NCBI GenBank assembly: GCA_014382665.1
Contig: JACNJH010000128.1
Span: 1-50,476, forward strand
From: Candidatus Desulfatibia profunda
Lineage (GTDB): Bacteria > Desulfobacterota > Desulfobacteria > Desulfobacterales > UBA11574
Direction: 5' to 3'
Length of the DNA stretch: 50,476 nucleotides
Shown: piece after piece, positions 44,719 to 50,137 of the stretch
Layout: every line of letters starts with the position of its first letter
How positions within the stretch are numbered: the stretch's first letter is position 1
Notes under the pieces: model-generated
Told to the model about the DNA's origin: nothing
The model's input: the letters and a program-made list of their open reading frames with translations, nothing else
Database searches by the model: none
Made by a program: the position numbers and the translations under genes

Positions 44719-45612
44719 ATGACCACCCGCGACAATTATTTCCTGCGGTATGGCATCTGGCGCTGCGATCAAATCAAAAGACGCGGAACCGTGATACTGC
44801 TCGGCGGCCGCACGGAATTTATGGAAAAATATGCTGAAACGATCGGCGCATTAAAGCACAGAGGATTTGATGTTTACAGTTTTGACTGGCGCGGCCAGGG
44901 TCTTTCATCACGGGAGTTGCCAAACCGGCATAAAGGCTTTGTCAAAACCTATGGGCGCTATGTTGATGATTTGGCCATGTTTGTCGAAAACATCGTTAAA
45001 CCGGAAGCCGTATCCCCATTCATTATCCTGGCGCATTCCATGGGCGGCCACATTGCCCTTCGTTATCTTCATGATTATCCCGGGGTGATCGAGCGGGCGA
45101 TCCTGGTATCGCCGATGATCGACATTTTGACATCATCCTTTCCAAGGTGGCTGGTCAGGTTGATCACCCGCCTTGCCGCTAAAGCCGGGCAGAACCATGC
45201 GTATGTCATCGGGTCCGGCAACTATTCTGCTGAGGATGAAATATTCGAAGGCAACCGGCTTACAATCGATCCCCGGCGTTTTCTGGATGCGAAAAGGGCC
45301 ATTGCAAAAAACCCGGATCTTGCGCTGGGCGGTGTTACCTACGGCTGGCTTGCGGCGACGTTCGCATCGATAGATATCCTCAAATCGCCCGGATTCGGAG
45401 AAAATATCGCCGTTCCGATTCTGATGATTGGCGCCGGAGCGGACGAGATCGTTTCCGTCAAGGCTCAAAAAACTATCTGTTCACACCTGCAACAGTGCCG
45501 TTTGACCGTTATTCCCCGAGTGCGTCACGAAATTCTCAAAGAAACGGATGCCGTCCAATCCGTCTTCTGGGACGAATTCGACAGATTTACCGCCGTTGAT
45601 ACAGCCCGATGA
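44677..45612 (+). CDS. Alpha/beta hydrolase, lysophospholipase (PldB) type
   Basis: Serine hydrolase of the alpha/beta fold. LLGGRTEFMEKYAE and DWRGQGLSS lead to the nucleophile elbow HSMGGH; the acid (GADEIVS) and the histidine (VRHEIL) follow near the C-terminus. The sequence matches monoacylglycerol lipase/lysophospholipase relatives. Possible starts in frame are TTG 44677, ATG 44698 and ATG 44719; a longer N-terminus exists in another frame. The 3' end overlaps the convergent PEBP gene by 26 bases. Substrate unknown. Confidence 0.85.
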   Translation: MTTTIINMLSPFGRMTTRDNYFLRYGIWRCDQIKRRGTVILLGGRTEFMEKYAETIGALKHRGFDVYSFDWRGQGLSSRELPNRHKGFVKTYGRYVDDLAMFVENIVKPEAVSPFIILAHSMGGHIALRYLHDYPGVIERAILVSPMIDILTSSFPRWLVRLITRLAAKAGQNHAYVIGSGNYSAEDEIFEGNRLTIDPRRFLDAKRAIAKNPDLALGGVTYGWLAATFASIDILKSPGFGENIAVPILMIGAGADEIVSVKAQKTICSHLQQCRLTVIPRVRHEILKETDAVQSVFWDEFDRFTAVDTAR

Positions 45613-46138
45613 GCTCCGCCTTGAAAAGCACATGGCTTTTCATCGCTTTTTCGAGCTTGGCTTTGGTTGGGTGTCCCAGGTCCGGAAGAACCGTATCCAG
45701 AGCATATAGTTTGTGAAAATAGCGGTGCTTGCCGATGGGCGGGCAGGGGCCGCCGTAGCCGGTTCTCTTCCAATCGTTCAGACCTTCCAGGGTTCCTTTG
45801 GGAAGATCCTTGGCAGTGGCGCCTTCAGGTAAAGAAACCGCTTCTGCAGGAATGTTGTAAAGAACCCAATGCACCCATGTCATTCTTGGATTGGCAGGGT
45901 CCGGAGCATCAGGATCGTCAACAATCAAGGCAAAGCTTTTGGTTTTTTCCGGTACGTCTGACCATGTCAGGGCCGGAGAAATGTCCGCACCGTCGCAGGT
46001 ATACTTTGCCGGGATTTCCCCCTGGTTCATAAAATTTGGTGATGTCAGTTCCATAGCCCAACTCACCTCCTTTGCATGTGTAGATAAAATTAATAAAGAC
46101 AAGGCAATCTGTGTAAAAAGAAAGGACCGTCTTTTCAT
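45587..46138 (-). CDS. YbhB/YbcL family (PEBP, Raf kinase inhibitor-like) protein, exported
   Basis: 183 aa. The N-terminus (MKRRSFLFTQIALSLLILS...) is a signal peptide, with a possible cleavage after HAKEVSWA. The mature part has the PEBP blocks KYTCDGADISPALTW, DDPDAPDP and WVHWVLYNIP, and GGPCPPIGKHRYFHKLYALD. Bacterial members bind small anionic ligands; function is unclear. Periplasmic location is inferred. RBS AGGGAG is visible upstream. Confidence 0.9.
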   Translation of the reverse strand: MKRRSFLFTQIALSLLILSTHAKEVSWAMELTSPNFMNQGEIPAKYTCDGADISPALTWSDVPEKTKSFALIVDDPDAPDPANPRMTWVHWVLYNIPAEAVSLPEGATAKDLPKGTLEGLNDWKRTGYGGPCPPIGKHRYFHKLYALDTVLPDLGHPTKAKLEKAMKSHVLFKAELIGLYQRR

Positions 46139-46258
46139 AATGCTTCTCCCTAGCTGATCTTCATTATGCTAAACATTATATAAGTTTTTGGGCCGGTGTC
46201 AAATTTAGTACAGGTATTCTTAAATATGGTATCGTATTATAATTGGATAATTTATAAT

Positions 46259-46487
46259 CACCGCTGAGACGCAGAGGTCGCAGAGAATTTGTTTCTCTTT
46301 TGCTTTCCGTTGAGAGGGCGGAAAGCAAAAACATGCATCCCTGTGTGATAAAGAAATAACCACCTGTATTTCAATACAATATTGCTTTTATAAAGCTTGA
46401 GCTATTTTCTTTTTGCCGTCCCCTCAACGGCAAAAAGAAATAATATATAACTCTGCGGACTTTGCGTCTCAAGCGAAGCGGGCGGTG
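46259..46487. repeat. Nested-palindrome element (outer inverted repeat around two inverted hairpins)
   Basis: Outer arms CACCGCTGAGACGCAGAG (from 46259) and GACTTTGCGTCTC...GGCGGTG (to 46487) match as inverted repeats (18 of 21 core bases, the right arm with 10 extra bases). Inside are two perfect hairpins: TTTTGCTTTCCG stem, 12 bp, 9-nt loop (46298-46330), and TTTCTTTTTGCCG stem, 13 bp, 9-nt loop (46406-46440). The second is nearly the reverse complement of the first, including the loops. No gene lies inside. Confidence 0.8.
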
Positions 46488-46819
46488 AAACAATATAAAA
46501 AAATACGTCATCGAACTTACGAATCAGAGCACTTAGATGAATTCGTAAGGAAATGTTTTGTTTTTTTTACAAAATATGCATTATCAATAGCTTATAATAT
46601 TCCGGGTGAACATCACTTAAAATGCCGACTTTAAAAAAAATATTCGGTGCGCCAACAATTCATTTGATTTTATTTAAAAAATTATTTAATATTGCAACAA
46701 TCATGAAAGGTCCTACTACAGTCGGGGGCCGGTTTCGTTCTTAGGGGAAAGCCATTTGCCAAAGTGGTAGCCTAAAGTTTGAAACTATGAGAACTTTTTT
46801 AAGAAAGGAGGAGATCACT

Positions 46820-47020
46820 ATGGCGAATGGGATTGTGAAATGGTTTAGCGATAAAAAGGGCTATGGTTTTATTGAGCAAGAAGATGGGCCGGATATATTC
46901 GTTCATCATTCAGGGATCGGGGGGGCAGGTTTCAAGTCTCTTCATGAGGGCGATCGGGTTACCTTTGACATAGAGGATGGTCAAAAAGGTCCGGCAGCAG
47001 TAAATGTCACCGTAGTTTAG
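46820..47020 (+). CDS. Cold-shock protein, CspA family
   Basis: 66-aa single OB-fold RNA chaperone. [18 protein letters not shown] gives RNP1 (KGYGFI), and DIFVHHSGI gives RNP2 (VFVHH type). The start at 46820 has an excellent AAGGAGG ribosome binding site; an upstream in-frame ATG at 46787 lies before it and is not needed. The 5' leader (46640-46819) is long, as often in csp genes. A terminator follows. Confidence 0.95.
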
Positions 47021-48985: not shown

Positions 48986-50137
48986 TTAAACGAACTGGTA
49001 CAATCCCAATCGTACAGGTAGATTGCCGTGGACTCTCCGTGTGCCCCTCGATTGATCGCTATACTTCCGCTTCAGGAAAATTCGTAGCCGCTCGCGAATA
49101 AAACCGTTGAGCCCGCGGATGCGTTTGCGGGCTGCTTTTGCTTGCCTGTGATAGTTATCCCACCCTCTTAGCACTGGATTTAGCTCTGCTATCAGATCTT
49201 CCGGCGATAAACTGAATCGCCGCCCTATCACTTCTCTAACCCGCTCTTTTATCCGCTTTATCGAGCGGTCCGAGGGCCAGATGGCACAGTACTGCTTGGT
49301 CTTTGCATTCTTTGTCGGTACCGGACACAAACGAAAATGCACACCAAGAAAGTCAAATCCCTTTTCCGCTTTAACTACTCGCGTTTTGCCCGGGTGCAGC
49401 TTCAATCCCAGCCGACCCAGCATCTGTGACACTTGCTCGATGACCTTCTTCCCGTTCCGCCAAAGCAAAATAACAAAATCATCGCAGTACCTTACCAACG
49501 TTCCTGGAATTGCCGACTGTTGGAACATCTTGTCAAACGAGTGCAGGTAGATATTACTCAGCAACGGTGATATCACACCGCCTTGCGGGGTTCCCAAACC
49601 GTTTGGCGCGATATGTTTGCCCTCTTCCATGACGCCAGCCTCAAGCCACATGCGGATTAGCTTTAAAACACGGCGATCCGATATGCGGCGTGCGACCAGC
49701 TCCAGAAGAATATCCTGCCGAATATTATCGAAAAAACCGGTTATGTCGGCGTCTATCACAACATGCCGACCTTTAAACGTAATCGTCCGGTCTATGATGC
49801 GAATCGCATCATGGGCGCTACGGCCAACTCGAAATCCATGAGAACATTCAAGGAAATTGGTCTCAAATATCGGCTCGATTACCAACTTCGTTGCCGCTTG
49901 CACCACGCGGTCTCTTATGACCAGAATCCCTAAAGGCCTTTTATCAGGTTTGCCCGGCTTGTCGATATAGCGCCGCAATACCGGTCGCGGGCTGTATCGC
50001 TCGCTTTTCATTTGCTCACGCACCTCGACCAGAAATTGCTCTACACCAATAACGTCCTCGATGTATTCAAAATCCTGCTTGTCAACGCCAGGCGCCCCTT
50101 TGTTGGCCCGCACCCGTTCCCAAGACTCGGCAATCAC
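48986..50137 (-). CDS. ltrA: Group II intron reverse transcriptase/maturase (main fragment)
   Basis: Intron-encoded protein that splices and reverse-transcribes its intron. RT motifs are intact over 383 aa: NKGAPGVD, DADITGFFDNI, GTPQGGVISPLLSNIYLH, YCDD active site at 217-220 (more often YADD), and the maturase X domain LNPVLRGWDNYHR at about 319-331. No HNH endonuclease follows. The real N-terminus is missing: in frame upstream sense continues only after deleting a 17-bp palindrome, so this GTG start is probably an artefact of a broken gene. Confidence 0.85.
   Translation of the reverse strand: MIAESWERVRANKGAPGVDKQDFEYIEDVIGVEQFLVEVREQMKSERYSPRPVLRRYIDKPGKPDKRPLGILVIRDRVVQAATKLVIEPIFETNFLECSHGFRVGRSAHDAIRIIDRTITFKGRHVVIDADITGFFDNIRQDILLELVARRISDRRVLKLIRMWLEAGVMEEGKHIAPNGLGTPQGGVISPLLSNIYLHSFDKMFQQSAIPGTLVRYCDDFVILLWRNGKKVIEQVSQMLGRLGLKLHPGKTRVVKAEKGFDFLGVHFRLCPVPTKNAKTKQYCAIWPSDRSIKRIKERVREVIGRRFSLSPEDLIAELNPVLRGWDNYHRQAKAARKRIRGLNGFIRERLRIFLKRKYSDQSRGTRRVHGNLPVRLGLYQFV

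Follow-up and report, generated by a model that had tools for sequence, protein, structure and literature searches.

A 229-bp palindrome of Candidatus Desulfatibia profunda is probably a gene-less derivative of a one-gene GxxExxY element

A contig of Candidatus Desulfatibia profunda (JACNJH010000128.1) contains a palindrome of 229 bp (46259-46487), which has a gene of the PEBP family on one side (45587-46138, minus strand) and a cold-shock gene on the other (46820-47020, plus strand). What type of element is this palindrome, and which system could have brought it to its place? The window, i.e., the whole stretch of 50,476 nucleotides that was analyzed, also includes an open reading frame (48986-50137) whose product has domains of a reverse transcriptase and of a group II intron maturase. 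The reading favored here, with a probability of about 0.6, is that the palindrome is a non-autonomous, MITE-like derivative of an element that has a GxxExxY gene as its only gene.

Anatomy of the palindrome and its copies

The palindrome is bounded by two inverted arms with three words of 7 nt each, which are of the CGCAGAG type. The left arm (46259-46285, plus strand) starts with CACC, followed by the words CGCTGAG (46262), CGCAGAG (46270), and CGCAGAG (46279). The resulting spacing of 0/8/17 is of the same class as that of the arrays that adjoin GxxExxY genes of the LSSKIIG clade. The right arm (46451-46487, minus strand) contains the words CGCAGAG (46451-46457) and CGCAAAG (46460-46466), while its third, outermost word is split by an insert of 10 bp, AGCGAAGCGG (46472-46481). 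Over 21 nt (46265-46285 and 46451-46471) the arms are 86% complementary, and the outer palindrome is thus imperfect. The two hairpins inside the arms are perfect. Hairpin 1 (46298-46330, plus strand) has a stem of 12 bp (46298-46309 and 46319-46330) and the 9-nt loop TTGAGAGGG; hairpin 2 (46406-46440, minus strand) has a stem of 14 bp (46406-46419 and 46427-46440) and a 7-nt loop, which, read on the other strand, belongs to the loop family of hairpin 1. The spacer between the hairpins (46331-46405) is devoid of open reading frames of 80 amino acids, and it is at this position that gene-bearing relatives carry their gene. A scan for open reading frames revealed no gene inside the window copy, which is therefore classified as a derivative and not as a full GxxExxY element.

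An earlier note on this DNA had described a gene-less palindrome at two levels, with a pair of mutually reverse-complementary hairpins and, in the outer right arm, an insert of 10 bp. All of this was borne out, the two hairpin regions being reverse complements at 75% over 28 nt and the insert being asymmetric. The stems of 12 and 13 bp and loops of 9 nt that it gave are correct for hairpin 1, but not for hairpin 2.

The folding energy of the palindrome as an RNA is -91 kcal/mol, with z-scores of -8.3 on the plus strand and -7.6 on the minus strand, which were equaled by none of 200 shuffled sequences. This strong fold on both strands would be in line with a structured RNA or a bidirectional terminator. 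However, an Rfam search of the window matched no family, the stems are T-rich first and then A-rich, which is opposite to an intrinsic terminator and in agreement with the earlier assessment that the palindrome is none, and relatives are found in many unrelated contexts, in some cases around a gene. An RNA-based explanation is therefore extremely improbable.

The window copy is one among dozens in related genomes. BLAST retrieved 10 matches at 8 places of its own assembly; counting this genome, 28 of the 60 genomes compared have matches. The copies have a common order of arm, hairpin, spacer, hairpin, and arm, with varying stem sequences and spacers. The loop core alone was not enriched as a search key (97 matches with at most two mismatches, versus 162 for the reversed pattern). 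Covariation was analyzed with 50 distinct hairpins picked solely by the loop TGAGAGG, in which 92.3% of the stem cells are paired and 13 of 14 pairs exhibit changes on both sides. The covariation score of 0.516 is far above the mean of shuffled alignments (0.143), none of which came near, and above any slid register (at most 0.137). The loop and its orientation are common to both hairpins, and the loop is invariant while the stems covary. Therefore, the hairpins are maintained by selection on pairing.

A hairpin of this kind occurs in 91 of 149 distinct half-elements, compared to 6 of 447 shuffled ones. Among 74 complete elements with CGCAGAG arms, 60 have a core of at least 150 nt, and these contain both hairpins in 30 cases, one in 16, and none in 14. 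The earlier note had asked whether both hairpins always occur together inside the arms. They do not: the arms are the more constant part, and the hairpins, which belong inside them, are accessory. An insert like that of the window copy is present in exactly one arm of 27 of the 74 elements, and in both arms of none. The hairpins are also limited to some word types: they accompany 7 of 14 arrays with CRCAGAG, CRCAAAG, or CRCGGAG words at 0/8/17 and 2 of 11 arrays of the CRCAGAC type, but none of the other 34 (shuffled sequences, 0 of 59). The word array is therefore the common feature, and the hairpins look like a clade-specific addition.

Two further observations concern individual copies. One copy that consists only of the arms (L013, about 703-775, G000:C291) lies in frame inside the reading frame of pglX (BREX), which is read through it. 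Small GC-rich palindromes, e.g., CCCCGCTTTTAGCGGGAC, are located within hairpin loops or arm words at seven loci (L006, L099, L107, L110, L114, L115, and L129), and they look like a second tiny repeat that targets these parts of some copies.

The GxxExxY gene and its word arrays

At two loci, L132 (genome G045) and L258, a GxxExxY gene is found between the arms and hairpins known from the palindrome. At a third, L137, which stems from the window's own family (G008), a full GxxExxY gene lies between such arms and hairpins, with the AGCGAAGCGG insert in one arm. At L101, a Desulfobacteraceae MAG locus that was found by the pattern of arm plus hairpin, the order is left arm, hairpin, and gene, and the available sequence covers the left side only. 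Two further loci (L125, L091) retain gene fragments between the arms. As in MITEs, the gene-less copies have their terminal inverted repeats in common with the protein-coding parent.

The gene of the full elements has about 125 codons and encodes a GxxExxY protein (PF13366/TIGR04256, PDDEXK_3), a family of small PD-(D/E)XK nucleases. The L101 protein scores far above the curated cut-offs of both profiles (153 bits versus 22 for PF13366 and 159 versus 35 for TIGR04256), and the residues D67, E77, K79, Q91, and Y95 are invariant in 14 proteins from many clades, in agreement with membership in the family. The pattern D...ExK...QxxxY is known from RecB/Cas4-type nucleases. The likeness to Cas4 profiles is weak and below the cut-off (Pfam, 15.2 bits versus 22.7; PADLOC, E 0.0015), so that the protein is not counted as a Cas4. 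A PDB sequence search with one protein gave no match, and a profile search gave four weak matches at chance level (best E 0.09), including T7 endonuclease I (E 0.76 and 0.93) and 4ic1 (E 0.83). The structure model, built from three sequences, is poor (pLDDT 52).

In the order to which the window belongs, 83 of 146 genomes contain GxxExxY genes, as do 111 of 297 genomes sampled across the phylum. The window's own assembly yielded no intact gene, but two partial matches, whose arm words are different. Phage records gave no match. Among viral contigs, one scan was without relatives, and further scans gave 3, 1, and 1 loci from three contigs; rare genes or gene fragments with adjoining word arrays are present on IMG/VR contigs labeled as viral (L278, L279, and L280). 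Three GxxExxY genes follow each other within a few kb at L207 (G045:C32) and at G318:C3 (169505-172251). On a plasmid of Sphingomonas parapaucimobilis (L224), the gene is tightly placed between fabD and fabG.

The association of arrays and gene was surveyed with 70 gene loci (L151-L220), which were the best-scoring among the listed matches and not a random draw. After removal of L167, whose gene did not fit the motif, 71 genes in 69 loci were kept, three of which had short flanks and were left out of the comparison of flank repeats. In this comparison, the inverted-repeat score was at least 40 for 42 of 68 genes, compared to 2.4% of mismatched flank pairs. Scores of at least 60 were reached by direct repeats in 20 and by inverted repeats in 6 of the 68; direct repeats between the flanks are thus also common, and the score alone does not prove an inverted layout. 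An orientation-specific array test was devised after this comparison, requiring at least three equal 7-nt words at distances of 8-11 nt. Inward arrays were found on at least one side of 61 of the 71 genes (reversed-sequence control, 1), and 10 genes had no array. Arrays on both sides faced inward in 31 cases (control, 0) and outward in 5. Of 123 other open reading frames of the same loci, 32 had an array on either side, as expected for neighbors, and only one had arrays on both sides. From one outer word to the other, the units span 426-965 bp (n = 31). In named plasmid records, arms flank the gene in Gemmatirosa, Bacteroides finegoldii, and Bernardetia, and were partial or unseen by inspection in the other four of seven.

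Genes of the family PF05635 (four-helix-bundle, 23S rRNA IVP) are also located between inverted arrays, of other words (AGTGGTC, CTGAGGG, AGGCTGA, and others). For 30 loci, of which 12 could not be parsed and were dropped, scores of at least 36 were obtained in 11 of 18, compared to 2% of mismatched pairs (L281-L310; also L270, at G166:C152). This is possibly a parallel system.

Words and spacings follow the protein. On a tree of the 71 proteins, 16 changes suffice for the four variable word letters (61 labeled rows, 12 states), compared to at least 37 in 200 shuffles, and 10 changes suffice for the spacing (5 states), compared to at least 31. The array test had been designed on the same loci, and it was therefore applied without modification to loci that stem from other orders of the phylum. 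This held-out set comprised 30 genes in 29 loci, 24 of which had an array (reversed control, 1), on both sides in 14 cases (control, 1). Predictions from the closest protein in the first set were correct for the word in 19 of 24 cases, compared to a mean of 3.9 and a maximum of 10 in shuffles, and for the spacing in 17 of 24, compared to a mean of 5.2 and a maximum of 13. The association of the gene with the arrays and the word code are strong. The concerted change of end words and nuclease suggests that the nuclease reads the words.

A co-evolution of arrays and protein would also be expected for a regulator. The arrays could instead act as operators of a chromosomal or defense nuclease, or serve as binding sites in another capacity, and the gene-less copies could be decayed loci that owe their spread to ordinary duplication and recombination and not to the nuclease. 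The tandem arrangement of some genes (L207) would fit this explanation. However, two-sided arrays predominantly face inward (31 of 71, versus 5 outward), the units are short, and copies with sharp edges are found at unrelated sites, so that this explanation is regarded as unlikely.

The earlier note had advised to look for a RAYT or an IS91/HUH transposase with matching ends. The inverted pair of hairpins, the covariation of the stems, and the lack of a target duplication (see below) are indeed compatible with a REPIN or another element mobilized by such an enzyme. This possibility is nevertheless highly improbable, because none of the five loci of the genome that encode a Y1 (HUH) transposase has a word array, and, according to profile searches, the gene between the arms encodes a PD-(D/E)XK nuclease and not an HUH enzyme. 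On the basis of these Y1 loci, a RAYT/HUH partner was rejected.

Mobility and the outer shell

Seven elements of the genome G045 were compared with six congeners through their joined flanks. At site 2, a gene-bearing element of 697 bp is absent from the orthologous site in G106, G142, G166, and G167, while G168 and G169 yielded one flank only. At site 3, G142 has an intact gene and G045 a remnant (tail only), and other sequences are found in G106, G167, and G169. At site 1, G106 contains a short arm remnant, G142 nothing, and G166 and G167 other sequences. At site 6, G142 and G168 are occupied as well. The junctions of the empty sites are not readable to the base, because the short intergenic stretches differ as well. 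G045 has two copies in unrelated surroundings with an identity of 96.6% over 204 nt, which corresponds to about the element and ten flanking bases. The repeat is probably mobile, as was implied before; copies occur at unrelated sites, and there are orthologous sites without the element.

No target duplication was detected in 34 plain-ended elements, in which direct repeats of 2-9 nt at the ends were no more common than in 300 shuffles. The CACC end is preceded by T in 90% of cases. For one copy of the window's assembly (C183), a 13-nt direct repeat, AATTAACCGCTCC, was observed outside of the composite described below; it is a single case and was not counted. A search for the empty site of the window's own copy found none and mainly retrieved cold-shock loci that are paralogs. 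Upstream of the cold-shock gene, the stretch 46664-46820 resembles its counterparts at the paralogs across the family and is a possible conserved leader.

In the window's family, the palindrome is real, but the repeated unit is larger than the 229 bp assumed earlier. The similarity to copies at unrelated sites extends over a composite of 332 bp (about 46205-46536), in which the element is copied together with a left outer shell (46205-46258), starting with TTAGTAC, and a right outer shell (46488-46536), ending with CACTTAG. L112 and L113, two copies from G008, have an identity of 95.6% over 320 nt with edges at CTAAGTGC...ACTAAG, and their flanks are unrelated. The shell has ends of the type CTWAGTRC and many copies in the family. 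In 5 of 21 shell pairs, it encloses a different interior, which carries CTAAAGTG word arrays, and the window copy is thus nested. No match that joins both halves of an empty shell was found among the matches listed.

The shell may therefore be what moved last, and this is the main weakness of a simple GxxExxY reading. Because the composite is the copied unit, another enzyme may have moved the window copy: a system that recognizes the outer shell, with the GxxExxY-type arms as nested cargo. The extent of the similarity block, the edges of L112 and L113, and the different interiors all agree with such a system. However, in G045 and G050 the similarity stops at the arms or no more than about 10 nt away from them, which shows that arm-ended units were copied there without the shell. 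Transport by a shell-specific system is possible, but judged to be rather unlikely.

Proposed mechanism and comparison with known systems

The favored reading, a MITE-like derivative of a one-gene GxxExxY element, is explained by the following model. The full element has TT-CACC ends and inverted arms, each with three 7-nt words about one helical turn apart; in the clade of the window copy, one hairpin is located inside each arm, and a single PD-(D/E)XK nuclease gene between the hairpins. The GxxExxY nuclease would bind its own word arrays and cut at or near the ends, which would enable the element and, in trans, gene-less copies to spread without target duplication. As each clade has its own word, each nuclease would serve its own copies. 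In the window's family, the copy has been taken up into the 332-bp composite, and the outer shell is now copied along. Judged from the sequences, the most probable mechanism, albeit unproven, is that the nuclease moves the element.

A generalization is more tentative and falls somewhat short of even odds. GxxExxY elements might represent a class of self-mobile DNAs that is widespread, starts at a size of about 430 bp, and has a single small Cas4/RecB-like PD-(D/E)XK nuclease as the sole protein. Each nuclease would read a three-word end address that evolves with it, and short genomic repeats with CGCAGAG, CACGAAG, CGCAGAT, CACGGAT, or CACAGAC words might be their non-autonomous copies. The link to GxxExxY would then explain a common class of intergenic repeats. 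Word arrays that are predictable from the protein give the GxxExxY family a testable role, and the combinations of word and protein provide a series of natural partners for the study of protein-DNA recognition. Should the nuclease indeed move the element, the latter would rank with the smallest mobile elements that have one gene, and it would use an enzyme type that is not known to act alone. In the open literature, to which the search was confined, GxxExxY has passing mentions without a mobile context (PMC12085832, PMC9756366, PMC8934634), e.g., a table entry for an algal virus genome (PMC12085832). The arm sequences gave only unrelated matches in the open literature.

Several known systems resemble these elements in part. 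REPIN/RAYT hairpins have a tag of the GTAG or CGTC type at their foot. REPINs are short palindromic doublets, whose hairpins exhibit compensatory changes and which are presumably mobilized in trans by one protein (PMC3116915). Hairpin doublets with compensatory changes and a presumed one-protein mobilization in trans are thus features of both systems. However, the partner of REPINs is a Y1 tyrosine HUH enzyme and not a PD-(D/E)XK nuclease, and here the ends are arrays of three 7-nt words, with the partner gene inside identical ends. IS91 and Helitron-like elements are defined by a Rep/HUH transposase and asymmetric ends; of the present elements, some have ends that differ through the insert in one arm. 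Like MITEs derived from insertion sequences, the gene-less inverted-repeat copies keep gene fragments of a protein-coding parent; in contrast, a DDE transposase is lacking, the parent encodes solely GxxExxY, and none of the 34 elements revealed a target duplication. Palindromic elements of Rickettsia are known as copies in frame inside protein genes, which is paralleled by the copy in pglX, with the difference that the parent element and its gene are known here. By the curated cut-offs, the gene of the full elements is a member of the GxxExxY family (TIGR04256/PF13366, PDDEXK_3). With Cas4 and RecB-type PD-(D/E)XK nucleases its product has the D...ExK...QxxxY pattern and a weak Cas4 profile similarity in common, but it differs from them in that the similarity stays below the curated cut-off, and in that it is a single small domain, encoded inside its own element.
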